In this document: in pieces, positions 1,909 to 54,683 of the stretch
How positions within the stretch are numbered: the stretch's first letter is position 1
How the letters are laid out: each line of letters begins with the position of its first letter
Assembly (NCBI RefSeq): GCF_030052815.1
Contig: NC_079503.1
Coordinates: 50,386,735-50,450,734 of the forward strand
Direction: 5' to 3'
DNA from: Hevea brasiliensis
Taxonomy: Eukaryota > Streptophyta > Magnoliopsida > Malpighiales > Euphorbiaceae
Length of the DNA stretch: 64,000 nucleotides
Notes under the pieces: model-generated
What the model saw: only the letters and a program-made list of their open reading frames with translations
Told to the model about the DNA's origin: nothing
Database searches by the model: none
Position numbers and translations under genes: made by a program

Positions 1909-1913
1909 CTTTC

Positions 1914-23148: not shown

Positions 23149-23325
23149 GGTCTTCCATCATAGGAAGACTAGTGGAAAGCTTGTATAGTGCCATGTGTCA
23201 CCATCTCATGGTGCCACATGTGACCATATGAAAAGACCAATATACCCTAACTTTTTAATTTGAGTTCTCAACCCAAAATTATAATTTCTCCTCTTCAAAT
23301 TAATTTATATCAAATATAAATTAAT

Positions 23326-24629: not shown

Positions 24630-24802
24630 ACTGTCACTCATATTCTTAACAACTTAAGAATGGAATTTCTAACAAAATATTAAAGGACCTTTTCAATTAC
24701 ACATAAATGGATTATGTAAACAGAAAAGTGAAATTGCCCTTTATTAATAAAATATGTACAAGATACATATAAAAATGATATGCTTAGGGAATAATACTAA
24801 TA

Positions 24803-26080
24803 GAAGAATTGAAGAAGAACATTCTGAAAGAGGCACACAGTAGCTTTTATGCTATGAACCCCAAGAGTATGAAGATGTATCGTGATTTGAAGTCTCATTG
24901 TTGGTGGCCTGGTATGAAGAAGGACATTGTTGATTATGTGACTAGATGCCTGATATGTCAGCAAGTTAAGGCAAAGCACTAAGTTCCATCAGGTTTGCTA
25001 TAACCTATAGCTATACCTGAGTGGAAATGGGACTGTATTACGATGAATTTTGTTATTGGTCTACCCCTCACACAGAAAAAGCATGATGCAGTGTGGGTAA
25101 TAATAGACAAATTAACGAAGTCAGCTCACTTCCTACTAGTTAGAATCGATTACTCACTGGAGAAGTTAGTAGAATTGTGTATAAGTGAGATAGTTCGATT
25201 ACATGGGGTGCTAGTATCGATCACATCAGACCGATACTCGAAGTTTACATCTAGGTTTTGGAAGAAGTTATAGGAAGCCTTGGGTACACATTTTCATTAT
25301 AGCATAGCTTTTCATCCTCAGACAGATGGGCAATCAGAAAGAGTAATCTAGATACTTAAGGACATGTTAAGAAGCTATGCTATGGAATTTGAAGAAAGTT
25401 GGGATAGGTATTTCACATTAGCAGAGTTTGCATATAATAATAGTTATCAGACAAGTTTAAAGATAGCTCCTTATGAAGCATTGTATGGAAGAAAGTGCAG
25501 GACACCCTTATGCTGGCTTAAATTGGGTGAAGATAAGATTGTGGGGCCAGATTTGGTGAAACAAACTGAGGAGAAGGTAAAGGTGATCAGAGCTAGTTTG
25601 AAAGTTGCCTCAAATAGACAGAAGTCATATGCGAATTTAAAAAGAAAAGACATGGAATATGAAGTCGGTGATAAAGTTTTCCTTAAGGTGTCGCCATAGA
25701 AAAAGGTGTTAAGATTTGGGAAGAAGGGTAAGTTAAGCCTGAGGTTTATTGGTCCATACGAAATCATTGAACGTGTGGGTCTGGTAGCCTATAGGCTAGC
25801 TGTACTACTAGAATTGGATAAGATCCACAATGTATTTAATGTCTCGATGCTAAGAAGATATAGGTCGGATCCTTCACATGTCATATCAGCGGAGGTAATT
25901 GATGTGCAACCAGATTTGACATATGAAGAGGAACTAGTAAAAATCTTAGCTCAAGAAATCAAGGAATTGTGGAATAAGAAGATTTCATTAGTGAAGGTGC
26001 TCTGGAGACACCATAACACAGAGGAAGCCACTTGGGAGAGCGAGGAGACAGTAGTATCCTTAGCTATTTACATCAGATAA
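24803..26080 (+). pseudogene. Element C integrase and chromodomain-like tail (no intron)
   Basis: Begins within the HHCC domain (KEAHSSFYAM...CLICQQ). In the catalytic core the first Asp is changed: MNFVIGLP where D, E and F read M/I-DF (25046). SDRY and SER follow. At 25351/25352 the frame passes directly from the codon before the splice site to ILKDMLRS with no insertion. The tail reads GPYEIIERVG and WRHHNTEEATWESEE. Stops at ~25001, 25271-25273, 25349-25351 and 25697-25699 are all TAG or TAA consistent with CAG, CAA or TGG changes. The residue change and stops make it inactive. Confidence 0.87.
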
Positions 26081-27350: not shown

Positions 27351-29973
27351 TGTAATATCCTCATTTTAGCTAGTCCGTACAATCTACTGTTCCGATGACC
27401 AGTGTCGATCCGGACAGCTAGAACGTTCGGAAAAATATTTAAACTAAAGTGAGGAACTAAAAATTAACTCAAATAATTAATAAAAAAAAAATTTAGGAAA
27501 AATTATAAAATAATTTTTGGGACTCCAGAGAAGGGTCATTGAGGTTCTTATGGCATTAGAATGCCAAGAAAATACTTAGAAAATTTTTTCAATCGGTAAA
27601 GATAATTTTGGCCCGTTAAGCCAAACGGAGGATATTTTGGTTATTTCGTCTTCAGAGATGATTTTTGGGCTAACTTGTCCAGTTAAATAAATAATTTATA
27701 TAACATAAAATATGATTAAATATTGTTAAAAATTTAATTGAAATTAATTGGACAAGAAAAGGATGGAAAATTTAAAGAAATTGAAATTATGACATCATAA
27801 GGATGTCATTAAAAATCTCCAACCCAATCAAGTGTTGACACATGTCACCAAGGTATATAAAAGAGATGAAATGGGCAGAAAGTGAAGAAGAAAAATTAGA
27901 CCTCCTCTCTCTTCTTCTCCTTGACGTAAAACCTCCACCATTGCCCTCCATAACCAAGCTTTACCCAAGCTTGATTTCTTGGGTTTCTATCCATTAAAAC
28001 TTAAATTTCTCAACACAAAAACTTGCTCTTACACCTTGGTGATTTTTTTGGGAGCCAAAAGAACAGGAAAACAAGAGCTTTAGTAAGTGGGAAAATCTCA
28101 CTCCTTTGAGGTTAGTGACCTAACCATGAATTTAACTTTGAATATGTGTAAATTGCAAAGAAAAAAAATTGTTGAATACCATTTGTATGTAAACCCTAGA
28201 TTTTTTGTAGCCATGATTAGGGTTTGATTGTGTTGAGTTTAATGAAAGTAAAAGACTATCATGGCTGCCCATAATATGTATTTACCAAGTGGATTAAAGA
28301 AATGCAATGAAAATGCATGAAGGGTAATGTGTAAGTTAGGGTTTGGGATGGAAAAATAGGATTTTGACCATGTGATGATGAAAATAGGTTTTAATGGTCA
28401 ATTAGTGACCATTTAGTTCTGTTTAAATAAAAAATGAAGTGTGTTAAGTGATGGGATTGGGTTTGGTGTGGCAGCCATGAAAGTGACCTGCAGAATTGGA
28501 CTTGAGTCCAGCAGGTTTGGGCAGCCATAAAACTAAACACATAATGGCACAACTTTTGTGAAGAAACCATGCCCATAAAACCAAACCAAGTGGACCAAAA
28601 GCTTGCCTTAATCCGGGTGACCTGCAGTATATTTTTGCAGAATGACCAAATGAACAATGCCATAACTCAATGTAGAAAGGTTCAATTGACCTGAAAGTTT
28701 ACCAGCAACAAGCTGAGACATAGACCAACAACTTGCATGAAGGAACCTAACCCAAATTTTGACCAGAACCTATCCAACAAGTGAGTTACAATCACTGTTC
28801 ACTACACTATAGATATGGTCAGTTCAAAAAAATTTCAATCCGGCCAGTTGTGGTTTTTGGATGATAACTTGAGCTACAAAACTTCAAATGGAGTGATTCA
28901 AAAATTAAATTCAACTAGACAAAATAAGGAACAACTTTCATGTTGATCATTTTGCCAAATTCCCATTACAAGATTGACCAATGGAACAGTAAATATAAGG
29001 TATGAAAACTGAAAATTCTGCTCAATTAATATTAAGCTTAGAAATAGTTTTGGCAACCAAAACCAACAAGTTTAAAATGCAAAATGTGGTATGTTGGTGA
29101 TATTAGAACCAATGTATCTATTGCCTATGCAAAAGTCAACATTCTTGTTGACTAATGAAGTAAATAGTAACACCAAAACTTGAAATTCAAAAATTGTGAA
29201 ACTTAAAAGTGTAAAATGCCCTAGTATACCTAACAAGATTGGTTTGGATAGCTTGGCATGCCAATAGGGTTCTGTTAGCAGTACTGCATATGACTTCATG
29301 CCATTCTGTATTTCATGGCTCGTATGCCATTCTGTGACATAATAGCCTTTGGCTATGTTATTTGAGTTGATATACTTGGGTTTTAACCCTGATAATTATT
29401 ACAGCTTATTACCTGTTCTGTTGCTCACCGGGAGACACAATGTGACCGATGGAGACCTAACTGGGGAGCCCAGCAGACATCAGACGGGGTGAGTCTTCAG
29501 AGCTGTATCAGGAGTCCAGAGTCACCTCACATCTGCACTGCATATGGTAGGACATTAGGACTATACGTGGCCTTTTTCTATTTTGCATTTTGTATTAGTT
29601 TGGATTGTAACTATAAACTCCTGTAATTATGTATTAATGTAAATATATGAAATTTCATATTATTGAGGTTTTCTGCATTATGTATGTTGAAAAATGAAAT
29701 GTTGAGACTTTGAGATTGACTTGAATGTGTATAATGGAGTTTGGATTTGGAAATTATTTTAGAAGTGTTTTTAAATAGGTTCAGAAGAACTATTTTTTTC
29801 AATTTATAGCCGGCACTCTGTCGGATTTTCTATAAAATTTGTGGATAAATTCAAATTTATCAAAATTGAAAATAAATGAATTATAAAGGGATAAATTGTA
29901 ATAGAAACATAAATTGGTGCTCTGGCACACTGAGTGGCATAACTTGCTCGGCTATACTATAAGGGGTGTCACA
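27351..29973 (+). repeat. 5' LTR of element F, 2623 bp
   Basis: TGTAATATCC start, GGTGTCACA end, followed by the PBS. It is shorter than the 3' copy because a segment equivalent to 46468-46741 (274 bp) is missing at 29451, and a ~48-bp segment equivalent to ~45489-45536 is missing near 28515. Both missing parts carry structures conserved in other LTRs. No gene is supported. Confidence 0.9.
27854..27863 (+). promoter_or_regulatory. TATA box of element F 5' LTR
   Basis: TATATAAAAG about 500 bp into the LTR, in an otherwise conserved stretch, followed ~50 bp later by a CT-rich run (CTCCTCTCTCTTC) typical of a plant 5' transcribed leader. The 3' LTR has the same box at 44779-44788. Transcription would start about 30 bp downstream; that is inferred. 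Confidence 0.7.
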
Positions 29974-30101: not shown

Positions 30102-31140
30102 ATGGATCCTGCTTCGCAAAGAGTAGTTGAGGAAGAGGTGGAGAGTCTGCTCCACCAGCAGCTGAGCCACATGCCCAACCTCAGTTTGCACTATTTCAAC
30201 AAATGACCGAGTTTTACTGGGAAATGATGGGGGCAATTCCACCACCATAATCATAGCCATAACCTCCACCAGCACCACAGAAATCTCATTTGGAGAAATT
30301 GAGGAAGCATGGGGCTGTGGACTTCTTTGGGAAGAGGGAAGATGATCCCATGGCTGCAGAAAATTAGTTGGATAGAACCATCAGAGTGCTGAAACAGCTA
30401 AATTGCACCCCCGAGCAGAACCTGGTGGGTGTTGTGTCCCTACTTCAGGATGATGCATATTAGTGGTGGGACACAGTAACCAGTGAGGTGCAACCTGAAT
30501 GGATCACCTGGGAATTCTTGCTCACAGAGTTCAGGAAGAAATATATTAGCAAAGTGTATTTAGAAGAGCGAAGAAGGGAATTTATCGCCCGAGATGAGAC
30601 GGTTGTCGATGGTGAGTATGAGCGTGAGTTTGTCAGACTGAGCCGGTATGGGAGGGAGATAGTCCCTACAGAGGCAGAGAGGTGCAGACAGTTTGAAGAA
30701 GGGCTCAATGACAACATCAAAGTCATGATCACAGCAATTGAGATTATGGATTTTGCTAAACTGGTAGATGCAGCATCAAAAGTGGAAAGGGTCAGAATCA
30801 ATGAACAAAATAGAAGGGAAAGACAGCAGAAGAGGGGTCCGGGTCAGTCCAGTACATTTTTTACTCTCAGTAAGAAAAGTAAGGGTCCTCCTGCTCAAAG
30901 TTCAGGACCACCACAGGGTCAGGGTCAGTCTCAGGTGCCCAGACCACAATTCACACCTAGGAGAGGCCAGTCCACACCATCAATGGGCAGCTCTCCAGGG
31001 ACGGTGTTTAGGAGACTAGCCCCTGCATCTTTTGCTTGTCAGCATTTTCAGAAGTGGCATAAGGGGGATTGTTGGCGAGTGATCGGTGCATGCTTACGAT
31101 GTGGATCGACAGAACACTAGATCAAGAATTGTTCGAAGAG
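30102..31140 (+). pseudogene. Element F gag
   Basis: Starts MDPASQRVVEEEVES at 30102, the same start as D. A one-base loss near 30150 shifts the frame; after it the gag reads on with a Pro/Gln-rich stretch holding three stops (~30248-30262, TAA/TAG/TAA in Gln positions). Further stops are at 30365-30367 (Trp position), 30461-30463 (Gln position, compare QWWDTV in D) and 31118-31120. The core WEFLLTEFRKKY, EYEREFVRLSRY and RQFEEGLNDN is open for 210 codons (30488-31117). The CCHC knuckle CLRCGSTEH..KNC spans the last stop (~31092-31133). Confidence 0.9.
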
Positions 31141-33106
31141 GACTACTACAATTACTCCAACACAAACTGACAGACCTGCTTCTACACCACAAAGGGGTAG
31201 GAAACCTGATAAACCTGAGGCAGCTGGTCCATCACTAAGGCCTGCATCCGAGTCAGCTGAGAGGCCAGACACTAGAATACTTGCCAGAGCCTATGCCATC
31301 AGAGCTCAGGAGGAGCAAGATGCCCCGGATGTCATCAGGGGTATGTTTTCCCTCTACAACACTTCTATACATGCATTGGTGGATCCAGGATCCACTCATT
31401 CCTACATTTGCATCAAACTACCCATAGAGAGGGGAGTTCCAGTAGAGGAGAGTGATCAAGACATTCTGGTCACAAATCCACTAGGCCACAGTGTGGTAGT
31501 GAATAAGGTGTATAAAGGTTGCCCATTGAGGATTCAGGGGTATGAATTCTCGGCAAACCTAATTGAGTTGCCCTTCCACGAGTTTGACATAATTTTGGGT
31601 ATGGACTGGTTGTCACGTCATCAAGCAATAGTTGATTGCAAATTGAAGAGGATTTCTCTGAAAACTTCTGAGGGTAATAAGACCATTATTGTGGGTGAAA
31701 GGACAGATTTCCTGTCCAATGTTATCTCAACCACGGTTGCAAGAAGATTGATGAGAAGAGGCTGTGAAGCTTACCTAGCACACGTGGTTGATACTAGGCA
31801 AGCTAAGCCAAACCTGAGTGATATACCCACAGTGAGAGACTTCCCAGATGTATTTTCTGAAGAGTTGCCTGGTTTACCACCAGAAAGGGAAGTCGAGTTT
31901 GCTATTGAGGTAATGTTGGGTATAGCACCTATTTCTATTGCTCCTTATAGGATGGCATCCACTGAATTGAGGGAGTTGAAAACTCAGTTGCAAGAGTTGC
32001 TTGATAAGGGGTTCATACGCCCCAGTGTGTCACCATGGGGAGCTTCGGTGCTATTTGTGAAAAAGAAGGATGGAACCTTGAGATTGTGTATTGATTACCG
32101 GCAGTTGAACAAAGTAACTGTGAAGAATAAATATCCGTTGCCCAGAATTGACGATCTATTTGATCAGTTGAAGGGAGCCGGTGTATTTTCAAAAATTGAT
32201 CTCAGATCAGGGTATCATCAGTTAAGGGTAAAGGATGCAGATGTGTCAAAAACTGCATTCAGAACCCGGTATGGGCACTATGAATTTCTAGTGATGCCGT
32301 TTGGGTTAACAAATGCACTAGCAACATTTATGGACCTTATGAACTGTATCTTCCATCCATACTTAAATCGGTTTGTAGTGGTCTTTATTGATAATATTCT
32401 GGTGTATTCCAAGACTAGGGAAGAACATGATGAACATTTGAGGATTGTTCTGCAAAACCTGCGAGAAAAGAAGCTGTATGCTAAGTTGTCCAAATGTGAC
32501 TTCTGGATGAGTGAAATCTCCTTTCTTAGACACATATTATCAGCAGAAGGGATTAAAATGGATCCCAAAAAGATAGAAGCAGTGATGGAGTGGAAGCCTC
32601 CTAGAAATACAACTGAGGTCAGAAGTTTCTTGGGGCTAGCTGGGTATTACAGAAGATTTGTGAAGGGGTTCTCTCTTATAGCTGCTCCAATGACCAAGTT
32701 GTTGCACAAGAATATGAAATTTGGCTGGAACGACAAGTGCCAAGCCAGTTTTGAGAGGCTGAAGGCTATGTTGACAAAAGCACCAGTGTTAACACAGCCA
32801 ATGTCGGGAAAAGACTTTGTGGTCTACAGTGATGCCTCACATAATGGGCTAGGGTGTGTATTGATGCAAGAGGGGAAAGTGGTCGCTTATGCTTCCAGGT
32901 AGTTAAGGCCATATGAACAAAACTACCCTACTCATGACCTGGAGTTAGCAGCAATTATCTTCGCACTGAAGATATGGAGGCATTATTTATATGGTGAAAA
33001 ATGCTACATCTATACAGACCACAAAAGTCTAAAATATTTGTCAACCCAGAAGGAGCTCAATCTTAGATAGAGGCGATGGATTGAGTTCCTCAAGGACTAT
33101 GATTGT
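31141..33106 (+). pseudogene. Element F protease, reverse transcriptase and RNase H
   Basis: Open for 519 codons (31343-32899). Protease: [10 protein letters not shown], Asp codon 31382-31384. [34 protein letters not shown], then the active site reads [10 protein letters not shown]: the second catalytic Asp is Asn (codon 32393-32395), where D has FIDD. RNase [14 protein letters not shown] (~32828), DHKSLKYL (~33020). Stops at 32900-32902 and 33068-33070 are TAG where D has CAG. The Asp-to-Asn change alone should abolish polymerase activity. Same frame as gag and integrase. Confidence 0.92.
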
Positions 33107-33946
33107 GTGATAGATTATCATCCTGGGAAGGCAAATGTAGTTGTTGATGCTTTGAGCAGGAAGTCCATCACAGCTTTAAGATCACTAAATGCCTGTCTGT
33201 CCTTAGCTCAAAATGGAGCTATTTTGGCTGAGTTACAAGCGAGGCCAACCCTGCTACAACAGATACAAGATGAGCAGAGGGCAGATGAAAAACTAATGGA
33301 CATTGTGGGAAAAATTCCTGAGGGGAAGGAAACTGAATATGAGGTGAAAGCAGATGGGTGTCTTTACTACAGAGGAAGAGTGTGTGTACCAGATGATGGG
33401 GAACTGAAGACTAGTATTCTGAAAGAAGCACACACTAGTGTTTATGCTATGCACTCGGGGAGCAAGAAAATGTATAATGATTTGAAGCCTCATTATTGGT
33501 GGCCTGGTATGAAGAGGGATATAACTGTCTATGTTACTAAGTATTTGACATGTCAGCAAGTCAAAGCAGAATATCAAGTTCCATCAGGATTGCTATAGCC
33601 TATAAGCATACCTGAATGGAAATGGGACCGGGTCACTATGGATTTTGTTAGTGGTCTACCTCTCACCCAAAGGAAGCATGATGCAGTGTGGGTGATAGTG
33701 GATAGATTGACGAAGTCAGCACATTTTCTGCCAGTTAAGACTGACTACTCACTGGAGAAGCTAGCAGAATTGTATATCAGTGAGATAGTTAGACTATATG
33801 GAATCCCACTTTCCATCATATCTGACAGAGACCCAAGGTTTACATTGAGATTCTGGAAAAAGTTGCAAGAAGCCTTGGGCACACAACTCCGCTTTAGCAC
33901 GGCTTTTCATCCCCAGACTGATGGACAGTCAGAACGAGTAATCCAG
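33107..33946 (+). pseudogene. Element F integrase, first part (zinc domain and catalytic core)
   Basis: HHCC domain: KEAHTSVYAMHSGS, then YLTC where other copies have CLTC or CLIC; the first zinc Cys is Tyr (codon 33542-33544). TAG at 33596-33598 replaces the CAG of D. Catalytic core: Asp in MDFVSGLP (33641), Asp in SDRDPRF (33824), Glu in QSER (33932), i.e. DD35E with 35 residues between the last two. The frame then meets the GT of the candidate intron four codons after the Glu. Confidence 0.92.
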
Positions 33947-34020
33947 GTAAACCTAAGAACTAATTGAATTTTTGCAAGTAATAAATTAAAATGATAGTAA
34001 CACTGTGAATTATGTGATAG
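33947..34020 (+). other. Candidate intron inside element F integrase
   Basis: 74 bp, AT-rich, beginning GTAAAC and ending TGTGATAG; upstream exon ends CAG. It is in phase 0 and contains in-frame stops, so the polyprotein is continuous only if it is removed. Ends and position match the 80-bp segment in D (GTAAAT...TGTGATAG); the middles are diverged but similar (a run close to TGCAAGTAATAAATT). A branch-like CTAAT (33959-33963) is near the 5' end rather than the 3' end, a point against simple splicing. C and E lack the segment exactly. Confidence 0.68.
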
Positions 34021-34539
34021 ATCCGAGAGGATATGCTAAGGAGTTGTGTCATTGAGTTTGAGGGGAGCTGGGATAGATACCTCCCACTGGCAGAATTTGC
34101 ATACAACAATAGGTACCAAGCTAGCATCCAAATGGCCCCGTATGAAGCACTGTATGGGAGGAAATGTAAAACCCCATTGTGTTGGACTAAATTGGGCGAA
34201 GATAAGCTGGTAGGACCAGACCTGGTGAAACAGATTGAGGAAAAAGTGAAGATAATCAAAGCTAACCTGAAGATTGCCTCAGATAGACAGAAGTCTTATG
34301 CTGACTTGAAGAGAAAAGAGATAGAGTATGCAGTTGGTGATAAAGTGTTTCTCAAAGTCTCACCATGGAAGAAAGTACTGAGATTTGGAAAAAAGGGTAA
34401 GTTAAGCTCTTCATTGGCCCATATGAAGTCATTGAACGTGTGGGACCAATGGCCTATCGGCTAGCTTTACCACCAGAATTGGATAAAATACACAATGTAT
34501 TCCATGTTTCTATGTTGAGAAGATATCGCTCAGACCCTT
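34021..34539 (+). pseudogene. Element F integrase C-terminal region
   Basis: Resumes IREDMLRSCVIEFEGSWDRYLPLAEFAYNN and APYEALYGRKC, then VGDKVFLKVSPWKK. Near 34412 a small deletion shifts the frame; the GPYEVIERV segment seen in C and D continues in another frame. It ends at the copia-1 insertion in the codons for RSDPSH. Confidence 0.9.
34535..34539. repeat. Target site duplication of copia-1 (left)
   Basis: CCCTT here and at 44021-44025 flank copia-1 exactly. Without copia-1 the surrounding F frame (RRYRSDP / SHVIS) closes as in element C. Confidence 0.94.
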
Positions 34540-36634
34540 TGAAGGAACGGAAGCGTGAAAAACACAAGATTATACCATTGAATTCAAAAATTTTCACCTA
34601 GGGTCACAAGCACCATGCAAGATTTATTTTTATCTATTTGATTTCAATGATAAACAACATATTAAAACTCTTTTAATATGTTTTTGGATCTGTATTTGCC
34701 ATTTAAGATTTTAAAATTAATCAGATTAATTTTAGAACCCTAGATTAAATCAAGAACGATTACACTAACCTCTTGATGTGTTGCAGCGTGTCTGCGCCTT
34801 TGAGATTCGTCTTCAGGACACCAGATGTTGTCCCTCTAGTTTGTCCACACCAAGAACACCTATGGCAGCCCTTGAACAGCTTCTAAAGCCTTTTCTATTA
34901 ATTAGAAATTCAAGTTCTGCCTTTTAAGAGATTAGAGATGCAAACAGGACACTAGAAACAATTTCTAGTGTTCTTAATTCAAGAGATTGATGGCTAATCT
35001 CTTTGAATTGATGAGAGATGAAGAGAAATAGCTGGAGAGGCTCAAAGTGGCGTGAAATATGAGAGGAGAGGCTGCTGGTTGTGTTTTCTTTTCATAACCC
35101 CACTTAAATAGCTAGGTTAACACATTAAACCCTAGCCACATGTCACCTTTTGATTAGCTCTAGGTTTAAGTGACCCAATCACATTGTGCCAAGTGTCAAA
35201 CCTATATTTAATCTTGATTTTAATCATCTTACATGATTAAAATTATTTGGCAAGCTTATGTGTTATGCCATGTGTCACCATCTCATGGTGCCACGTGTCA
35301 CACTGCAAAATGACCAAAATGCCCCTGTTTCTTAATTTTGAGTTCTTAACCCAAAATAATTATTTTCTTCTTCTAATTAATTTATATCAAATATAAATTA
35401 ATTAATTAATCTCTATTAATTAATTTCTCATCAATTAAATTCATATTTAAACACTTTAAATATAAATTTAATTTATACTACACATCCAATAATCTAGATT
35501 TGGTTTCAAGTCATGCTAGTGACTTTGCTATTTTATTGCAAACCAAATCTATTTAATTAATCAATTAAACTCTTTAATTAATTAATTAAATCATATTTAA
35601 ATAGGTGATAACTTGTGTATGTGTGTGACTTACTAGGCTCATCACTAATTGGCAATGAGACATGATATCAACTCTTAATATCATCAGAACTCTTTCTTAC
35701 CATAAATGATTTCTCTAAATCATTTTATGAACCTCATAGACCATGGTTAACACCTAGCATAGCATGCCATGGCCACCCAATTAGTAATAAGATTTACCTT
35801 AAATGAACCTATAATCATATGTTACCATGCACTAGAATCTCTCACATAAAATCCCAACTCAAGCCGAGTCATGGTTTATGTCAAACTCCATTTGATATGA
35901 ATATTATGTTCTCTTTTAATTCCAGTTCTTGATTAAAAGATTTTTCTCATCGAAACTCTTTCGAATAAATCTATCTGTCTGCCAGAACTTGAAACATCAA
36001 GAACAATTAAATGAACATAGGATTTTATCTCTATTTACTTAGAGGAACAGATTCCTTCTTGATCAACACCTACCTCCATATATAACTAGCAGAGCCAACA
36101 CATGCCCATATACCCATACATAGTACAAGTATGAAAGCAGTATCAAACTCAAACTACCTATATACAAGATAACTGTGCTATCTCAGGTCTAAAGATTATA
36201 TGCACTGATATGATTTATGACAAAACATTGACAAGAGTAAACTCCATGTGCTTGTCATAAGTGTCACTGGTTCGGCTTACTTATCATTTATAAGTGCCTA
36301 TCATGTTTGTTATATGGCATGAGAGTCACCATTCCATCTTATTTATATCTCATATAAATAACTTGGGAACAAACATGAATACAATCTTTCTGGATAAGTC
36401 ATGTCCTTATTATGAAGTATCCTCGATTGTGAACCTATTTATGATACTTCGTGCTAGAAATATTGTCACTCATATTCTTAACAACTTAAGAATAATATTT
36501 CTAACAAAATATCAATGGACCTTTTCTATTACACATAAATATATTATGTAAACGGAAAAGTGGAAATGCCTTTATTAATAAAAATATGTACAAGATACAT
36601 ACTAAATGATATGCTCTAGGGCATATTACTAACA
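34540..36634 (-). repeat. 3' LTR of copia-1, 2095 bp
   Basis: Starts TGAAGGAACGG and ends ATTACTAACA. Its only long open frame (36294-36551) recurs in the other LTR at 43680-43937 simply because the LTRs are copies; it has no known motif. No gene is supported. Confidence 0.94.
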
Positions 36635-36650
36635 ATCTCCCACTAGCACT
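36635..36650 (-). other. Polypurine tract of copia-1
   Basis: On the minus strand GTGCTAGTGGGAGAT directly precedes the 3' LTR. The AGTGGGAGAT ending is typical of plant copia elements. Confidence 0.75.
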
Positions 36651-36916
36651 AGAGCCATTCATTACAATATCTTAGACCCATCTTCTCAAGATGTCACTAA
36701 TGAGATTATGACAAAGGCTTAGTGAATGGATCACTAGTTTTTAGCCGATGTTATATTTTCTGCATGGCTATATCGCCTTGCCCAACTATATCCCGATAAT
36801 ATGGTAGTGCCTTTCTATGTGTTTGGATTTTGGGTGAGACCTTAGTTCCTTAGCTCGCATGATCGCTCCATTGTTGTCACGCAGTAGTGGAACCGCTGAC
36901 TTAATGGAAGGAACTA

Positions 36917-37454
36917 CTATAAGTTCTCATTTAACTTCTTTATCCAAACAAATTTCCTTTGCGAGATTCGATGCAACAATATACTCAAATTTCGGAGTGG
37001 AATCTGCAATCGTGCTCGCTTGGAACTCTTCCAACCGATCGCACCTCCATTACAAATGAACACATATCCAGAGGTAGACTTTCTATCATCGATATCCGAT
37101 TGGAAATCGAATCGTATAACCATCCAATTGCAAGTCTCCACCTCCATAAATCAAGAATAAATCCTTAGTTCTTCTTAAGTACTTAAGAATATTCTTGACA
37201 GCTATCCAGAGTTCCAAACCTGGATTGGATTGATACCTGCTAGTCAAACTAACAGCATATGCGATATCCGGCCTAGTACACAACATAGCAAACAATAAAC
37301 TACCAATAGCCCAAGCAAATCCAATCCTGGCCATCTTATCTATTTCTTCTTGTGTCTTTGGAGACTTCTCTTTAGAAAGGTGTATACCATGTATCACTGG
37401 TAACAATCCTATATTGTAATCAAGCATGTTAAACCTCTTTAACACCTTTTCCAA
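36917..37454 (-). pseudogene. Copia-1 RNase H and RT connection
   Basis: Minus-strand pieces: CTRPDIAYAVSLTSRYQSNPG and ILKYLRRTKDLFLIYGGG (37454-37086), then DIDDRKSTSGYVFICNGGAIGWKSSKR (37147-36917) in a shifted frame. These are standard for the C-terminal RNase H of Ty1/copia pol. The usual AEY(I) and WMKK endings are distorted by frameshifts. Confidence 0.88.
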
Positions 37455-37580
37455 GTATAGACTTTGGGATAAACCAATTATTCTTTCGCTCTATCTCTAT
37501 AGATGCGAATCCCAAGAATATAGGTTGCCTCCCTAAGTCTTTCATGGAGAATGTATTTGACAACCATACCTTTATAGTCG

Positions 37581-38283
37581 TCAACATACTGTATCATTAC
37601 CCATCAACGTTATGTCATCCACATATAAGACAAGGAAAGTGATAGCACTGTCACTAACCTTCTTATATACACATGGCTCATCCTCATTTTTGATAAAACC
37701 AAAGGATTTAATGGCTTCATCAAAACGGATGTTCCAACTCCTCGAAGCTTGTTTCAACCCATAAATGGATCGCTTTAGCTTGCATACCTTGGAACCATCT
37801 TGGGATTCAAATCCCTTAGGTTGTTCCATGAAAATGTTTTCTTCAATGTATCCATTGAGAAAAAGCTGTTTTGACATCCATCTGCCAAATCTCATAATCA
37901 TAGTATGCAGCTATTGCTAATAAAATCCTAATTGATTTAAGCATAGCAACAAAGCAGAAAGTCTCCTCATAGTCTATTCCTTGCCTTTGGCGAAACCCTT
38001 TCGCTACTAGCCTTGCCTTATAGGTCTCTACCTTTCCATCAGAACCAATTTTCTTCTTGAAAACCCATTTGTTCCCTATAGGTACAATACCTTCAGGTGG
38101 GTCAACAAGATCCCAAACTTGATTCTTATACATGGAATCAATCTCGGATTTCATAGCATCAATCCATTTTGAAGAGTCTATATCTGATATAGCTTCTTCA
38201 TAGGTAAGTGGATCATCTTCATGATCTACTTCTTCATGAGTAAACAACTCTTGTTCTTCTTCATGAAGAAAACCATATCTCAC
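37581..38283 (-). pseudogene. Copia-1 reverse transcriptase
   Basis: Two overlapping frames on the minus strand. The first (38283-37843) reads WIDAMKSEIDSMYKNQVWDLVD, KWVFKKKIGSDG and KARLVAKGFRQRQGIDY. The second (37901-37581) reads KLKRSIYGLKQASRSW and the active site YVDD (37614-37625), both aspartates intact. One frameshift separates them near 37870. This is the RVT_2-type copia polymerase. Confidence 0.92.
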
Positions 38284-38802
38284 TGGTGGGTGAGATACCT
38301 GGTTGTTCTACGAGGAACAGTGTAGATGTTTCATCAATGGGTATAGGTTGACTAGATGGATCTATATCCATCGATGCATTGGTTGGTCGAATTCTCCAAT
38401 TCTAACTCTATTTGCCTTCCTTTGCCTCCTTCTTAAACAAACCGTTGTTCAAGAAATGTGGCATCTCTACTTATCACAACCTTTTGTGAAGTAGGCAAAT
38501 AAAAATAATATCCAAAACTATCTTTTGGATATCCAACAAATCGACCTTTTACGATCGGTCTCCAATTTATCGGTGTTCACTTTTGATATAATTTGGACAA
38601 CCCCAAATCTTAACATGCTTAAGACTTGGTTTTCTTCCATGCCATATCTCATAAGGTGTGGAAGAAAGCGATTTTGATGGAATCCTATTCGAATATACAA
38701 AGTGATTCTAATGCAAATCCCAAAGGAGATTGGCATATCGGTATAGCTCATCATACTACGTACCATATCCAATAGGTACGATTTCTCCTTCGGATACACC
38801 AT
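38284..38802 (-). pseudogene. Copia-1 integrase C-terminal region and linker, fragmented
   Basis: Pieces such as NRIPSKS, PYEIWHGRKPSLKHVK and WGCP can be read only by changing frame several times between 38800 and 38520; the interval to RT carries Ser/Pro-rich linker sequence. Recognisable but heavily frameshifted, less decayed in codon content than in frame. Confidence 0.75.
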
Positions 38803-38909
38803 TCGGTTGTGGCGTTCTGGAGGAGTCGGTGAGAAACAATGCCATGCTCTCTCAAGTATTCATCAAATTCGGTACTCAAATATTCACCTCCACGATCGAT
38901 CGAAGAGCT

Positions 38910-39408
38910 TTAATATTTTTCTGTTTGATTTACTACTTCAGATTTAAATTCCTTAAACTTTTCAAAGGATTCATGTTTGTATTTCATCAAATACAAATAC
39001 CCAAACCTTGATTTATCATCAGTAAAGGTAATAAAATAATGAAAGCCCCCTCTAGCCATTTCTTTAAATGGACCACATACATCACTATGTATTAGCTCCA
39101 AAATATTTTCAGCTATTAGCACATGACCAACAAAGGGTGATCTAGTCATTTGCCACGAAGGCAAGATTCACAAGTTGGAGTAGGCTCGAGCCCAATGAGG
39201 ATAGAATCCCCATTTTCTCCAATTTTGCAATCCTATCTTCTGCAACATGACCTAACCTTAAGTGCCAAGTATATTTTGAACTTGAGTTGGTTTTCACCAT
39301 GGCATTGCTTTCATTTAGATTGCTACACTCTGGCCAGTGGAAACACTTTCTTACTGGCAATGGAAACACTTTCCTGTTGGCAGTGGAAACACTTTCCTTT
39401 GCCTCCAT
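38910..39408 (-). pseudogene. Copia-1 GAG-pre-integrase and integrase core
   Basis: Minus strand: TWHLRLGHVAEDRIAKLEKMG (His of the zinc domain, ~39267-39200), then ELIHSDVCGPFKEMARGG (first catalytic Asp near 39083) and YFITFTDDKSRFGYLYLMK. The downstream part toward the second Asp and Glu continues with frameshifts. Between the gag zinc knuckle (~39391) and this domain only ~100 bp remain, so the protease with its DSGA-type site is missing. Confidence 0.88.
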
Positions 39409-40153
39409 CAGCTTTAGTCTTACTTTTCTGTTTAGCTATTTTCTTGGAAGGACCAGGAATCTGAGGTTTCTTTTTCTTATTGCCTTTCTTCTTGTTGGAC
39501 TTTCCAGTAAGAAGATGCAACAAAGCTACCTCTTTTTCTTTATTGCACGGCATATTCTTTTGGTCTATATCCAGCATGTTGACTAATTCATCTAAGGTTC
39601 ATTCCTGTTTTGTCATATGGTAATTTGTCACAAAATTCCCTAAAGACTCATGAAGGTTCTGAAGGATCTAATGCGTTTGTTGTTGGAATTCCATGTTAAA
39701 GTCAAGATGTTCCAACTGCTCAATCACCGAATCATCTTGTGGACATGATCCCCAACATTCATCCCTCGGACATCCTCATACGGAATAAGCTGTTTAGATA
39801 TCTCATACCTAGCATTCTCTTTGTGCTCACCATACAACTCTTGTAGGTGAAGGAGGATCTCACTAGCACTCTGCATGTTCTCATGTTGCTTCGTAACTCA
39901 TTACTCATGGAAGCAAGCATGTAACACTTAGCGCTCATATCATGCTCCTTCCACTTGTCCAAAGTATCATGTTCCTCTTGTGTGGCCTCTGGAGGTAAGG
40001 GACCAGGAACATTTGAATATAGAACATATCCTATATGTTCAAGGTTCAGACAAGTTTCAAATTTCTTAGCCAATCGACAGATTAGGTCTGTCAACTGTTG
40101 TGATCAAGTATGCTTGCAAGGATATTGGATGGTGGTGGTTGTTTTGTGCTCAT
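39323..40153 (-). pseudogene. Copia-1 gag with disrupted zinc knuckle
   Basis: Start ATG at 40153 (MSTKQPPPSNILASILDHN). An open piece (40094-39759) reads KFETCLNLEHIGYVL, DKWKEHDMSAKCYMLASMSNELR, typical of plant copia gag. A Lys-rich basic run leads to KCFHC (39377-39391), the start of a CCHC knuckle, but its His/Cys half is replaced by repeats of a 23-bp unit. A short deletion after ILDHN and frameshifts near 39800 and 39590 break the frame. Confidence 0.85.
39335..39403. repeat. 23-bp triplicate across the copia-1 gag zinc knuckle
   Basis: GGAAACACTTT begins at 39339, 39362 and 39385, a strict 23-bp period. Units are close to CAGTGGAAACACTTTC plus TTACTGG or CTGTTGG. Because 23 is not a multiple of three, each copy changes frame. 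The first unit in gag direction encodes the KCFHC of the knuckle. Confidence 0.9.
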
Positions 40154-41333
40154 TTTTATCGTAAAATTAAGCTGCAGAAAATAACCAGATTAATTAGTAA
40201 ATGTATCATGTAATTAACCAAAATGATTATGGTCTTTTAATCAAATTGGTCCTCCCACTAACTTAGCGAATCCTACACTTCCAAAGTAGAAAAGCGGAAA
40301 TCCTAGTTGGATGGATTTCTAGTGGGTGATTGAATTCTTATAATTCTATTGATCATCCTCGGTACATCCATTATTGGAATTACAATAAACTATAAGTGAG
40401 CAACTCCTTGCCCATCACATCTCATGTGAGGTTCAATCCTTTTACTAGCCCCTAATGCTCAAAATCTCGTGTACATCCAATATTGACTTATCTTGCATTA
40501 GTTAAGTTGATCCCATTGAGCGATAATTATGCAAATAATTTTAATGTCCTCAGTACACCCAATATTGGCCACCAAACCATTTACATATTTACAACATCTC
40601 ATGCTTAACAATTATTCTTAAGAAAATCTCTTAAATTAATTGCATCTCATGCAACTATTTAAAATTTCTTAAAATAATTGCCCCAATGGAGGGCTTATGT
40701 TATAATTACTTTAATTATAGCATTTCCAACTTAATCATTTGTTTGGAAGATTTTATAGCCATCCTAATTACTATTAAGGTCTCACTTTGCACATTATCCA
40801 TTTAGCATGCATATATCATATAATTGCATACATTCCCATACATCTCATGCATTCATGGATAAGCAGTAAATATGGTATGATCATGGACTGTCTAAGGGAT
40901 TCAATTTGAGCCACCAAGAATTGAATCAGGCATTCCTAGGTGCATTTCATTCATTCATTTTACAAGAGTTGCTGAAGGAGTACATAATCAACACTTGATA
41001 TTGAATTCCTCCCACTGGTCCCACCAATGCTCTTGACCTCCTTGAACTTCTTGCAATCCAATATTACATAGTAATCCTTGGCATACCAAGGCGAATTTAC
41101 AAGTACTTAAATAAATGAAATTACAACCCAAAATATTACAAACTTAATAATACATGCCCAAAATAAATTAAAATAAATTAATTAATTTACAATCCCAAAG
41201 AAACATAAAAGAAATAAATCCAATCACATTGGTCTTTTATAGTCCATGATCATCCATCATGCATATCACTATTTAACAATTAAATAAAACATATATTCTT
41301 AAATTAAATTGAATATCTCATATTCAACTTAAA
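40154..41333. other. Copia-1 leader, gene-free
   Basis: About 1.2 kb of AT-rich sequence between the gag start and the minisatellite. I see no motif or supported coding sequence in it. It is unusually long for a copia leader. Confidence 0.7.
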
Positions 41334-41683
41334 ATTCAGATTTGAATATGATTCAAATAAATTTAAAAATTCAGATTTGAATCTCATTCAAACAAATTTA
41401 AAAATTCAGATTTGAATCACATTTAAACAACTTCAAAAATTCAGATTTGAATCACATTCAAACATTTTTAAAAATCAGATTTGAATCACATTCAAATATT
41501 TTTAAAAAATCAGATCTGAATTTTATTGAATCAATTTTAAAAATCAGATTTAAATATGATTCAAACAACTTTAAAAATTCAGAATTGAATCTCATTCAAA
41601 CAACTTTTAAAATTCAGATTTGAATCACATTCAAACAATTTTTAAAATTCTGATTTGAATCATAAATTAATTGTGTGATTAAA
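41334..41683. repeat. 35-bp minisatellite in the copia-1 leader (~10 copies)
   Basis: The core CAGATTTGAAT recurs (some copies with a mismatch) at 41337, 41372, 41407, 41442, 41476, 41511, 41545, 41580, 41615 and 41650, a period of 34-35 bp. Units are close to TTCAGATTTGAATCACATTC plus AAACAATTTTAAAAA. Neighbouring units differ at a few positions. It lies within the transcribed leader between PBS and gag. Confidence 0.94.
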
Positions 41684-41909
41684 ACAACTAATTAAACACT
41701 TTAATTAGTCAAAGAATAGGCCTTAGATCATACAACAATTGCAGAATTAAAAGCCAAACCTTGAATCACCCATGGAACCATTGTTGCCGCCCCCAATGGT
41801 GGCTTCTCCATGTGACGCCACATCTCATGATCCAACCAGCAATGAATCTCTTGATCTCATGATCAAACACACAATTAAATTATATAATCAACAATCTAAA
41901 TGGCAAATA
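41684..41909. other. Copia-1 leader between minisatellite and PBS, gene-free
   Basis: Short AT-rich stretch with a GC-richer patch near 41785-41820 (GCCGCCCCCAATGG). No gene or known motif seen. Confidence 0.6.
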
Positions 41910-41912
41910 TAG

Positions 41913-41927
41913 TGGCTCGATACCAAT
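41913..41927 (-). other. Primer binding site of copia-1
   Basis: On the minus strand ATTGGTATCGAGCCA next to the 5' LTR. It is the Met-tRNA-type site of plant copia elements (TGGTATCAGAGC class) with a one-base loss, as copia-2 has TGGTATTAGAGCC at the same place. Confidence 0.85.
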
Positions 41928-44020
41928 TGAAGGAACAGGCGTGAAAAACACAAGATTATACCATTGAATTCAAAAATTTTCACCTAGGGTCACAAGCACC
42001 ATGCAAGATTTATTTTTATCTATTTGATTTCAATGATAAACAACATATTAAAACTCTTTTAATATGTTTTTGGATCTGTATTTGCCATTTAAGATTTTAA
42101 AATTAATCAGATTAATTTTAGAACCCTAGATTAAATCAAGAACGATTACACTAACCTCTTGATGTCTTTGCGTGTCTGCGCCTTTGAGATTCGTCTTCAG
42201 GACACTAGATGTTGTCCCTCTAGTTTGTCCACACCAAGAACACCTATGGCAGCCCTTGAACAGCTTCTAAAGCCTTTTCTATTAATTAGAAATTCAAGTT
42301 CTGCCTTTTAAGAGATTAGAGATGCAAACAGGACACTAGAAACAATTTCTAGTGTTCTTAATTCAAGAGATTGATGGCTAATCTCTTTGAATTGATGAGA
42401 GATGAAGAGAAATAGCTGGAGAGGCTCAAAGTGGCGTGACATATGAGAGGAGAGGCTGCTGGTTGTGTTTTCTTTTCATAACCCCACTTAAATAGCTAGG
42501 TTAACACATTAAACCCTAGCCACATGTCACCTTTTGATTAGCTCTAGGTTTAAGTGACCCAATCACATTGTGCCAAGTGTCAAACCTATATTTAATCTTG
42601 ATTTTAATCATCTTACATGATTAAAATTATTTGGCAAGCTTATGTGTTATGCCATGTGTCACCATCTCATGGTGCCACGTGTCACACTGCAAAATGACCA
42701 AAATGCCCTGTGTCTTAATTTTGAGTTCTTAACCCAAAATAATTATTTTCTTCTTCTAATTAATTTATATCAAATATAAATTAATTAATTAATCTCTATT
42801 AATTAATTTCTCATCAATTAAATTCATATTTAAACACTTTAAATATAAATTTAATTTATACTACATCCAATAATCTAGATTTGGTTTCAAGTCATGCTAG
42901 GGACTTTGCAATTTTATTGCAAACCAAATCTATTTAATTAATCAATTAAACTCTTTAATTAATTAATTAAATCATATTTAAATAGGTGATAACTTGTGTA
43001 TGTGTGTGACTTACTAGGCTCATCACTAATTGGCAATGAGACATGATATCAACTCTTAATATCATCGAACTCTTTCTTACCATAAATGATTTCTCTAAAT
43101 CATTTTATGAACCTCATAGACCATGGTTAACACCTAGCATAGCATGCCATGGCCACCCAATTAGTAATAAGATTTACCTTAAATGAACCTATAATCATAT
43201 GTTACCATGCACTAGAATCTCTCTGTTACAAAATCCCAACTCAATTTGAGTCATGGTTTATGTCAAACTCCATTTGCTATGAATATTATGTTCTCTTTTA
43301 ATTCCAGTTCTTGATTAAAAGATTTTTCTCATCGAAACTCTTTTACGAATAAATCTATCTGTCTGGCCAGAACTTGAAACATCAAGAACAATTAAATGAA
43401 CATAGGATTTTATCTCTATTTACTTAGAGGAACAGATTCCTTCTTGATCAACACCTACCTCCATATATAACTAGCAGGAGCCAACACATGCCCATATACC
43501 CATACATAGTACAAGTATGAAAGCAGTATCAAACTCAAACTACCTATATACAAGATAACTGTGCTATCTCAGGTCTAAAGATTATATGCACTGATATGAT
43601 TTATGACAAAACATTGACAAGAGTAAACTCCATGTGCTTGTCATAAGTGTCACTGGTTCGGCCTACTTATCATTTATAAGTGCCTATCATGTTTGTTATA
43701 TGGCATGAGACTCACCATTCCATCTTATTTATATCTCATATAAATAACTTGGGAACAAACATGAATACAATCTTTCTGGATAAGTCATGTCCTTATTATG
43801 AAGTATCCTCGATTGTGAACCTATTTATGATACTTCGTGCTAGAAATATTGTCACTCATATTCTTAACAACTTAAGAATAATATTTCTAACAAAATATCA
43901 ATGGACCTTTTCTATTACACATAAATATATTATGTAAACGGAAAAGTGGAAATGCCTTTATTAATAAAAATATGTACAAGATACATACTAAATGATATGC
44001 TCTAGGGCATATTACTAACA
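41928..44020 (-). repeat. 5' LTR of copia-1, 2093 bp
   Basis: Starts TGAAGGAACAGG and ends ATTACTAACA, nearly identical to 34540-36634. Several of the differences are one- to three-base indels. No gene. Confidence 0.94.
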
Positions 44021-44275: not shown

Positions 44276-44778
44276 TGTAACATCCTCATTTTAGCTAGTC
44301 CGTACAGTCTACTGTTCTGGTGACCAGTGTCGAACCGGACAGCTAGAACGTTCGGAAAAATATTTAAACTAAAGTGAGGAACTAAAAATTAACTCAAATA
44401 ATTAATAAGAAAAAAATTTAGGAAAAATTATAAAATAATTTTTGGGACTCCAGAGAAGGGTCATTGCGGTTCTTATGGTATTAGAATGCCAAAAAAATAC
44501 TTACAAAAATGTTTCAATCGGTAAAGACAATTTTGGCCAGTTAAGCCAAACGGAGGGCATTTTGGTCATTTTGTCTTCAGAGATGATTTTTGGGCCAACT
44601 TGTCCAATTAAATAAATAATTTATATAACATAAAATATGATTAAATATTGCTAAAAATTTAATTGAAATTAATTGGACAAGAAAAGGATGGAAAAATGAA
44701 AGAAATTGAAATTATGACATCATAAGGATGTCATTAATAGTCTCCAACCCAATCAAGTGTTGACACATGTCACCAAGG

Positions 44779-44788
44779 TATATAAAAG
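44779..44788 (+). promoter_or_regulatory. TATA box of element F 3' LTR
   Basis: TATATAAAAG, the copy of the 27854 box, at the same distance from the LTR start. From a 3' LTR it would drive outward transcription into element C. Confidence 0.65.
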
Positions 44789-46694
44789 AGATTAAATGGG
44801 CAGAAAGTGAAGAAGAAAAATCAGACCTCCTCTCTCTTCTTCTCCTTGATGTAAAACCTCCACCATTGCCCTCCATAACCAAGCTTTACCCAAGCCTGAT
44901 TTCTTGGGTTTCTATCCATTAAAACTTCAATTTCTCAATATAAAAACTTGCTTTTACACCTTGGTGATTCTTTTGGGAGCCAAAAGAAGAGGAAAACAAG
45001 AGCTTTAGCAAGTGGGAAAATCTCACTCCTTTGAGGTTAGTGACCTAACCATGAGTTTTTCTTTAAATTCATGTTAAGAACTTTGAATATGTGTAAATTG
45101 CAAAGAAAAAAATTGTTGAATACCATTTGTATGTAAACCCTAGATTTTTGGTAGTCATGGTTAGGGTTTGATTGTGTTGAGTTTAATGAAAGTAAAAGAC
45201 TATCATGGCTGCCCATAAAATGTATTTACCACGTGGATTGAAGAAATGCAATGAAAATGCATGAAGGGTAATGTGTGAGTTAGGGTTTGGGGTGGAAAAA
45301 TGGGATTTTGACCATGTAATGATGAAAGTATGTTTTAATGGTCAATTAGTGACTATTTAGTTCTGTTTAAATAAAAAATGAAGTGTGTTGAGTGATGGGA
45401 TTGGGTTTGGTGTGGCTGCCATGAAAGTGACCTGCAGAATGGAGTGACCTGCAGAATTGGACTTGAGTCCAACAGGTTTAGGCAGCCATAACTTGAATTG
45501 TAGAGGTTTAATTGGTGCAAGGCCAATTTGAAATGAAACTAGACACATAATGGCACAACTTTGGTGAAGAAACCATGCCCATAAAACCAAACCAAGTGGA
45601 CCAAAAGCTTGCCTTAATCTAGGTGACCTGCAGTCTGTTTCTGCAGAATGACCAAATGAATAGTGATTGTTCATTTGGCTATAACTCAATTTAGAAAGGT
45701 CCAATTGACCTGAAATTTTACCAGAAACAAGCTGAGATATAGACCAACAACTTTCATGAAGGAATCTAACCCAAATTATGGCCAGAACCTATCCAACAAG
45801 TGAGTTACAGTCACTATTCACTGCACTGTAGATATGGTCAGTTCAGAAAAATTTCAATCCGTCCAGTTGTGGTTTTTGGACCATAACTTAAGCTAAAAAA
45901 CTCCAAATGGAGTGATTCAAAAAAAAGGAAATTCAACTAGAAAAAATAAGAAACAACTTTCATGTTGATTATTTTTCCAAATTCCCACTGTAAAATTGAC
46001 CAATGAAACAGTAAAGATAAGGTATGAAAACTGAAAATTCTGCTCAATTAATATTAAGCTTAGAAATGGTTTTGGCAACCAAAACCAACAAGTTTAAAAT
46101 GCAAAATGTGGTATTTTGGTGATATTAGAACCAATGTATCTATTGCCTATGCAAAAGTCAACATTTTGGTTGACTAATGAAGTGAATAGTAACACCAAAA
46201 CTTCAAAAATTGTGAAACTTAAAAGTGTAAAATGCCCTAGTATACCTAACAAGATTGGTTTGGATAGCTTGGCATGCCAATAGGGTTCTGTTAGCAGTAC
46301 TGCATATGGCTTCTTACCATTCTGTGTTTCATGGCTTCTATGCCATTCTATTACATAATAGCCTTTAGCTATGTTATTTGAGTTGATATACTTGGGTTTT
46401 AACCCTGATAATTATTACAGCTTATTAGCTGTTCTGTTGCACACCGGGAGACACAATGTGACCGATGATGTGATGGTCCGAGGTACTTAGTACCCAGTGC
46501 CAGTTTACACATTTATCCAATCCAGTTAATTAATATGGGTTCCTCTGGCAATGTTAAAGAACCTTACCAAAATTTTAATTGAATAATAATGCAAATAATA
46601 TCAAAAGTTAAGTCTACCAAAAATTGTAAACACACATTCTGCATCTTTGTTTTATCATATTTTATTTTATTTTATTTTATTTATATTGTCACCA

Positions 46695-46712
46695 CTAAGC
46701 AGAATTGCTTAG
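46695..46712 (+). other. Conserved LTR hairpin (element F copy)
   Basis: CTAAGCA-GAAT-TGCTTAG, 7-bp stem with 4-base loop, preceded by GTCACCA. The same structure is found at 8875-8892 (D), 12942-12959 and 19191-19208 (G), and with changed but pairing stems at 48512 (C), 2613 (S1), 49940 (S2), 61231 (B) and 62804 (S3). Confidence 0.85.
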
Positions 46713-46749
46713 GGCGTCGCTTTTGCCACGCACAGGTACTAGAGACCTA

Positions 46750-46764
46750 GCTGGGGAGCCCAGC
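46750..46764 (+). other. Second conserved LTR hairpin GCTGGG-GAG-CCCAGC
   Basis: 6-bp GC stem with 3-base loop, about 40 bp after the first hairpin. It is also at 8823-8837 (D, reverse complement) and as a 5-bp stem at 29461-29473 (F 5' LTR). Confidence 0.8.
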
Positions 46765-53401: not shown

Positions 53402-54683
53402 CAACCTAAGGAATGAGATTATGCGGGGGGCATACTATACACCTTACAATATTCACCCAGTATCTACAAAGATGTACCATGATATGAAGGATAGGTACTA
53501 GTGGAATGGTATAAAGAGGGACATAGCAGACTTTGTGTCCAAGTGCCTGACTTGTCAGAAAGTAAAGTTTGAGCATCAGAGGCCATCAGGGAAGTTGCAA
53601 TTGATTCTCATTCTAGAGTGGAAGTGGGAAATGATCACTATAGACTTTGTGACTGGGTTGCCTTGTACCACCCGAGGGTATGATTCCATATGGGTGATTG
53701 TGGATTATTTGACCAAGTTAGCTCACTTTTTGCCTGTACAAACCACCTTCTCTGTTACTCAATATGCAAGGTTGTACATCTGTGAGATAGTCAAATTACA
53801 TGGGGTTTCTGCTTCTATAATATCTGATAGAGGGCCCCAGTTCACTTCTCGGTTCTGAAGGAAGCTATAGGAAGCACTTGACACACAACTAAATTTTAGC
53901 ATAGCTTTCCACCCGCAGACAGATGGGCAGTCTGAGAGGACAATATAGACACTAGAGGATATGCTTTGTATGTGTGTCATGGATTTTGGAATCTAGTGGG
54001 ATGATCAGCTACCATTGGTGGAGTTTGCTTATAATAACAACTATCATTCCGATATTGGAATGGAACCCTATGAGGCATTGCATGGCAGGAAGTGTAGGTC
54101 CCCTTTATATTAGACAAAAGTTAGAAAGGCAAGAGTACATAATATAGATTTAGTGCAGTACACTTCAGAGATAGTTCCTTTGATTAAGGAATGTTTAAAA
54201 TCAGCTTTTAGTAGACAGAAGAGTTATGCAGACCTAAAGCAGAAATATGTAAAGTTTACAGAGTGTGGTTACGTATTCTTAAAGGTTTCTCCTGTGAAGG
54301 GGGTTATAAGATTTGAAAAGAAAGGCAAGTTGGCACCTTGTTCTGTAGGACTTTTTGAGATCACAGACAGAGTGGAAGCAGTTGCCTACTGGTTGGAGTT
54401 ACCACCAAACCTTTCTCATGTCCACCCAGGGTTTCATATTTCCATACTTAGGAAGTATGTTCCCTACCCTTCTCATGTGTTGTAACCTGACACAGTGGAG
54501 TTAAATGAGAATTTGACCTTTGAGGAACAACCAGTGGCCATAGTAGACTATTAGATGAGACAGCTTTGATCAAAACAGATCCCTATGGTTAAAGTTCTAT
54601 GGAAAAGTCAATCAGTAAAGGAATGCACCTGGGAGTTAGAGCGGGATATGCGCAAAAAGTACCCATACTTGTTTAGTATGTAA
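53402..54683 (+). pseudogene. Element E integrase and C-terminal tail (no intron)
   Basis: Plus strand: zinc domain end SKCLTCQKVKFEHQ, catalytic core IDFVTGLPCTT (Asp), SDRGPQFTSRF (Asp), GQSERTI (Glu), then TLEDML with no insertion at the intron site (~53946), EPYEALHGRKC, QKSYADLKQK, a GLFEITDRV segment and a tail ending KYPYLFSM before TAA (54681-54683). Stops near 53500, 53857, 53868, 53947, 53994, 54112, 54482 and 54552 include many TAG in Trp or Gln positions. A separate chromovirus lineage from D/F/C; the tail WKSQSVKECTWELE is chromodomain-like. Confidence 0.87.

Follow-up and report, generated by a model that had tools for sequence, protein, structure and literature searches.

An integrase insert in Ty3/gypsy elements of Hevea

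The window analysed here, a 64,000-nucleotide stretch of the Hevea brasiliensis genome (C11:50386735-50450734), holds several retrotransposon integrase copies, which we call C, D, E and F. Element F is a Ty3/gypsy long terminal repeat (LTR) retrotransposon, since its pol domains follow in the order RVP_2, RVT_1, RNase H, Integrase_H2C2 and rve (Pfam), that is, protease, reverse transcriptase (RT), RNase H and integrase; it also has an LTR pair. Its integrase core is interrupted in phase 0 by an insert of 74 nt (33947..34020, plus strand; CAG/GTAAAC...GTGATAG/ATC), and D carries a homologous insert of 80 nt (1264..1343, minus strand; CAG/GTAAAT...GTGATAG/GTC), both delimited from sequence and translation. 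Copy C joins the flanking codons with no insert (25351..25352, plus strand, from the translation), as does E, a distant copy at about 66%, at 53948..53949 (plus strand, counted from the translation). A preliminary description of this DNA, made from the sequence alone, had proposed AT-rich segments of 74 bp in F and 80 bp in D that start GTAAAY after CAG; both were reproduced at the coordinates given above. It had placed the E junction at ~53946, near our position, and was exact for C (25351/25352).

The insertion point follows the Q of S-E-R-V-I-Q, four codons past the Glu of the D-35-E spacing (counted by eye), residues that we take to be the integrase catalytic triad. This, too, agrees with the position first proposed from the translations. 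In F the upstream integrase exon, containing the rve core up to this Q, occupies 33599..33946 (plus strand), with an rve match (E 4.6e-05) whose 24.1 bits fall under the curated cut-off of 32.6, and an in-frame stop TAG lies directly before it at 33596-33598. The downstream exon, with the remaining core and the C-terminal part, is open in F (34021..34398, plus strand) and gave no match in the Pfam scan. Both inserts are richer in AT (76% in F, 79% in D) than the F exons (57%), and the interruption of the frame by stops described earlier extends to all three frames of each. Reading in frame from the upstream exon yields VNLRTN* in F and VNSKTH* in D. An insert of this size is close to the minimum length of plant introns. 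Just before the insertion point, C and E have TAG (25349-25351 and 53946-53948, respectively) where F and D have CAG, and 12 of 120 listed protein relatives terminate exactly ahead of this codon, which may be particularly prone to C-to-T decay.

The F and D inserts are homologous (blastn E 1.7e-6, 73% identity), with a mean difference of 0.23 over 74 sites between the D insert and F-type inserts; they are therefore not a chance likeness of two unrelated insertions, and two independent insertions are unlikely. Compared with its own flanks, the insert showed no similarity beyond chance (136 of 200 shuffles scored as high), and an origin by duplication of the flanks was rejected on this ground.

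Retention, exact loss and conservation

To place the insert among its relatives we searched 1.88 Gb of genome in 755 contigs, each search scoring the best 40 of between 1195 and 3810 candidates. The lists obtained with the F and D inserts as queries were chosen by insert similarity, and we did not use them to judge retention. For the F insert, the 40 scored matches of 1234 (F included, 96-100% identity) without exception occupy this integrase position, with no unrelated site that would suggest dispersed, introner-like behaviour. All 40 start GTAAAC, 38 end TAG and two TAA, 39 are 74 nt long and one 75 nt, and the preceding exon ends in CAG in 30. The D insert returned 40 scored copies of 1195 (D included, 94-100%) and a 41st partial row, all of them matches to the insert only. 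At C7:56524520-56524739 two D-type matches on one strand are separated by about 70 bases; the site may have been duplicated locally there.

A sample not selected by sequence comes from the 60 kb beside the window, where five further integrase copies were found: L068, L069 and L070 have the insert (74, 75 and 80 nt), and L065 and L067 are without it. Together with the window, five of nine integrase copies carry the insert, and each of the five belongs to the D, F or L068/L069 type. These five inserts all start GTAAA, four end in AG, and all share an inner AATGATA, a candidate branch region. L068 and L069 form a third subfamily, with GTAAAC at the 5' end and TATATGTCAG instead of TATGTGATAG at the 3' end, so that three diverged subfamilies (D, F and L068/L069) carry an insert of 74-80 nt.

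Retention was judged with a query of 150 bases from the F upstream exon alone, for which the 40 scored of 3295 candidates comprised F and 39 others at 97-99%; the 3' side was fetched for all 39, and this survey covers F-type copies. The insert is kept in 35 of the 39 (31 of 74 nt and four of 75 nt), and is exactly missing from four, at C9:54.53M, C4:46.78M, C3:79.44M and C4:62.91M. In each of these the junction reads ATCCAG/ATCCTGGAGGAT, with the codons CAG and ATC joined in frame, and the sequence is F-type on both sides, where C differs (ATACTTAAGGAC). Exact removal at the splice ends suggests a spliced RNA template, by the same logic as the intron-marked Ty reporter. It also joins codons in frame, which together with the GT..AG ends and the 5' exon consensus is the arrangement of a U2-type spliceosomal intron.

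The relationships of the intron-less copies were examined in a tree of 960-base pieces from 20 of the 39 copies (the four intron-less and 16 intron-bearing), the 40 insert-selected copies, D, C and L068-L070. The pairing of L112 with L127 in a first tree was discarded as an artefact, both sequences ceasing to match the family from about column 560-600; we masked windows of poor match in eight rows and then reran both the tree and the approximately unbiased (AU) tests. In the masked tree each intron-less copy stands beside a different intron-bearing one (L110/L117, support 99; L111/L129, 86; L112/L116, 73; L113/L128, 64). A single clade of all four was rejected (AU, p=2e-5), as were the two triples tested, L110+L111+L113 (2.8e-5) and L111+L112+L113 (0.006). 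Pairs were rejected for L110+L111 (0.002), L110+L113 (0.002) and L112+L113 (0.039). At least two losses are firmly indicated, with four in the best tree. The preliminary description had asked whether precise losses recur and had proposed an intron propagated unspliced or partly spliced; the recurrence and the predominance of retention in this survey both support it.

The ends of the insert are conserved. Among the 35 intron-bearing copies of this set GT is intact in 34 and AG in 34, the exceptions being AT for GT and TG for AG. Across the 39 copies, minority cells amount to 2/210 in the first six intron bases, 96/2030 in the interior and 7/362 in the last ten bases, and to 79/2094, 65/2055 and 161/2057 at codon positions 1, 2 and 3 of the downstream exon. 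The pattern named at the outset as contrary to an intron, a single young clade with decayed GT and AG ends, was thus absent, given these intact ends and the three diverged subfamilies.

Selection was estimated as the ratio of nonsynonymous to synonymous substitution (dN/dS) by the Nei-Gojobori method, the ratios being rough where dS is high and near saturation. Between D and F-type copies dN/dS was 0.094 in the upstream exon (39 of 40 copies) and 0.058 in the downstream exon (range 0.038-0.089; 35 of 40); gaps excluded the remaining one and five copies, respectively. Ten pairs between subfamilies gave 0.035-0.102 downstream and 0.068-0.174 upstream, and these ratios agree with the codon-position counts of the downstream exon in the comparison of D with the F copies (13.1, 7.7 and 48.7). 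Synonymous distances among the three insert-bearing subfamilies range from 0.39 to 2.2. Within subfamilies the ratios were 0.50 upstream and 0.34 downstream for D and L070, as expected of dead copies, 0.18 and 0.26 for L068 and L069, and, as ratios of means over gap-free pairs of F-type copies, 0.40 upstream (496 pairs) and 0.16 downstream (435 pairs). Codon-position variant counts within F-type copies were set aside because transitions dominate, presumably through methylation decay. Both exons evolved under strong purifying selection between the insert-bearing subfamilies and, judged from these substitution patterns, both were translated in those lineages. The insert lengths of 74, 75 and 80 nt shift the frame without shifting that of the downstream exon. 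The insert contains stops in F and D and has frame-shifting lengths, yet selection acted downstream of it; the downstream exon must therefore have been reached without the insert.

The intron-bearing D, F and L068/L069 stand apart from C, E, L065 and L067 in the tree (support 69), and D and F are separated from C with support 99 in a tree without L065-L070. Of 3810 candidates for C-type copies, 40 were scored, C among them, and by match length every one of these runs across the junction uninterrupted. Because the tree separates the intron-bearing from the intron-less subfamilies, our best reading is a single gain after the split from C, and C most likely predates the intron. The earlier description had allowed that C either lost the intron or predates it; the former is improbable, given the place of C on the intron-less side of the tree within a multi-copy group, and the latter is probable.

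An LTR match over 800 bases was present in six of ten insert-bearing copies compared directly, with none such in the other four. In four intron-bearing copies examined in more detail, the LTR matches extend over about 3.1-3.2 kb, with Kimura two-parameter distances of 0.039-0.066; these copies are real insertions, as their LTR pairs and, in one of them (C5:40.66M), a clear 5-bp target duplication, GGTGG, attest. At a rate of 1.3e-8 per site and year, these distances correspond to about 1.5-2.5 million years. After the LTR, two of the four have tggtatcagagc, which we take to be a tRNA-Met-like primer site, and the remaining two have a variant of this sequence.

A probable partly spliced intron and the alternatives

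These observations are very probably explained by a short spliceosomal intron, gained once at a CAG codon of the integrase core in the ancestor of D, F and L068/L069, in a lineage that includes Hevea, and spliced from only part of the transcripts. The unspliced full-length RNA would be the usual template of reverse transcription, leaving the intron in the daughter copies, as the 35 of 39 close copies that keep it suggest. Translated as it is, such RNA would give an integrase that stops within seven codons of the Q after the catalytic Glu and loses its C-terminal part. The spliced RNA would restore the frame and is likely to be the mRNA for the complete integrase; its occasional reverse transcription would produce a copy with the intron exactly removed.

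Two versions of this explanation differ only in function. The intron may be passive, a chance gain with weak splicing that persists since most reverse-transcribed RNA is unspliced, without any regulation, and we give this something approaching an even chance. The seemingly suboptimal splice signals favour it, as do the occurrence of intron-less beside intron-bearing copies and the multi-copy state of the intron-less C-type group; however, the intron has been retained across three subfamilies as diverged as these despite recurrent losses, and its first six bases vary less than its interior. That same retention would be expected if the intron were regulatory in the manner of retroviruses, with the retained intron marking genomic RNA and truncating integrase, spliced RNA giving the complete protein, and the ratio of the two selected for a benefit to the element. 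In its favour, a stop comes no more than seven codons beyond the 5' site in all five unselected inserts and in 39 of the 40 insert-selected copies; against it, the peptide tail read from the retained intron shows no conservation (VNLRTN, VNSKTH, VNN) and C-type elements multiplied without the intron. We regard the regulatory version as tentative.

Explanations that dispense with an intron, or with spliced RNA in its loss, fare worse. If a random insertion, such as a small transposon or a duplication, had inactivated a burst of copies that are now decaying, further stops in the flanks would be expected, and they occur in 38 of the 40 insert-selected copies, L017 and L054 alone being stop-free in both flanks. 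Such an insertion is nevertheless hard to reconcile with the low dN/dS downstream of the insert across the insert-bearing subfamilies, with an exact and recurrent GT..AG excision in four of 39 copies (unless these are assembly errors), or with an insert unlike its flanks whose best 40 of 1234 matches are confined to the integrase site rather than dispersed; we consider it very improbable. Nor is it probable that the intron-less F-type copies owe their state to a deletion between the AG dinucleotides at the borders, or to gene conversion with C-type elements as donors, instead of to spliced RNA. The CAG and TAG borders do share two bases, a repeat on which a deletion could act, but all four junctions are identical and exact, with a deletion of like size in none of the 35 other copies, and the flanks beside the junction are F-type, not C-type.

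Several points weigh against a partly spliced intron, which we nonetheless prefer. Splicing itself is proposed here from DNA evidence, and each genome search scored 40 of its 1195-3810 candidates. Measured against the consensus, the 5' site has no G at +5 and the 3' end, GATAG, is weak, while 3' conservation is less clear than that of the 5' end because the count for the last ten bases takes in 12 letters placed by the aligner from the four intron-less rows. The exon end is no longer CAG in 10 of the 40 insert-selected copies, the L070 insert lacks AG and ends TAA, and perhaps every copy seen is dead by now. As for the losses, the AU test is compatible with the pairs L110+L112 (0.13), L111+L112 (0.39) and L111+L113 (0.053), so that two losses might share one event, and recombination among copies could spread a single loss.

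An element that moves through RNA is expected to lose introns, and here retention across three diverged subfamilies accompanies recurrent exact loss. We put forward, as a speculation somewhat short of an even chance, that the elements represent a natural, self-recording splicing switch, in which the intron separates genomic RNA from integrase mRNA and the intron-less share (four of 39) records how often spliced RNA served as template. Since retention and exact loss occur side by side in one family, the shares of spliced and unspliced template can be estimated from the genome alone, without experiment, and this natural system makes the separation of retrotransposon genomic RNA and mRNA testable.

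Related systems and genomic setting

In PMC12786077, plant LTR retrotransposons are described as generally intron-free, with Ogre and EVADE as named exceptions, and our literature search, conducted largely without subscription papers, found no integrase intron described in such an element. The regulated intron of Ogre (Ty3/gypsy, Tat) lies between the protease and RT frames; in contrast, the Hevea insert lies downstream of the protease-RT-RNase H frame, within the integrase core, is only 74-80 nt long and occurs alongside copies that have lost it exactly. As in the shGAG splicing of EVADE (Ty1/copia), BARE and the sunflower elements Tyran and Varan, spliced and unspliced RNAs would carry different frames (PMC12786077 and PMC7730604). 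In those elements, however, the product of splicing is a short Gag RNA (EVADE loses the protease domain in the process), whereas in Hevea it would restore the integrase frame; the insert, the only one compared in this respect, is located in integrase and is not of the shGAG type.

Partial splicing in retroviruses leaves unspliced RNA as genome and spliced RNA as mRNA. The same division is described for Cer1, and would hold in Hevea. Unlike in retroviruses and Cer1, the Hevea intron interrupts integrase, and no env-like or export protein was seen, although no search was aimed at one. Loss of the intron reveals passage through spliced RNA, as in the intron-marked Ty, LINE-1, IAP and ONSEN reporters (PMC12786077), whose introns are man-made; that of Hevea is natural and mostly retained.

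Among proteins, the best 120 of 7957 matches were classified at the junction by motif: 63 run straight through, 36 fall outside the motif, 12 end at the site, seven are other and two have an unspliced tail. Some of the 12 ending at the CAG site may end there with their contig. P0234 (JGI, contig 1244) ends ERVIQVNN like L068/L069, to which it is 96% identical, and P0240 (NCBI, contig 1057) ends ERVIQVNFKTH, a D-like tail; its identity to the compared copies of F, D and L068/L069 is 78-84%. The Hevea gene models P0001 and P0192 do not run through the site and are uninformative on splicing. A further protein, P0313, is encoded on a contig of 303 bases in an assembly that bears the label Escherichia coli; it matches this integrase at 95-97% to L068/L069 and is probably plant DNA within a bacterial assembly.

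The remainder of F follows the same strand. Its open frame for protease, RT and RNase H spans 31121..32902 (plus; Pfam RVP_2, RVT_1 and RT_RNaseH_2), and a second frame at 33071..33598 (plus) contains the zinc-binding part of the integrase (Pfam Integrase_H2C2). The LTRs, delimited approximately by self-comparison, lie at 27351..29973 (5', plus) and 44276..47271 (3', plus). From an integrase motif we presume F to be a chromovirus of the Tekay/Del-like kind. A scan of viral contigs with the F RT frame found no relative. A younger element (34539..44020, strand unassigned) is nested in the 3' end of F pol; its 2.1-kb LTRs (34539-36634 and 41927-44020) are 98.5% identical, and it has a copia-type RVT_2 frame at 37843-38307 on the minus strand. 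Relatives of its LTR (83-89%) adjoin C at 23173-24800.

Elsewhere in the window, two 4.6-kb copies (12329-16909 and 18576-23156) are 91.6% alike and show 76% to 8298-10259 beside D; they may be paired or solo LTRs belonging to a related family. Tandem arrays occur at 41331-41662 (a 35-base unit repeated 9.5 times) and 50059-50354 (a 47-base unit repeated 6.3 times).
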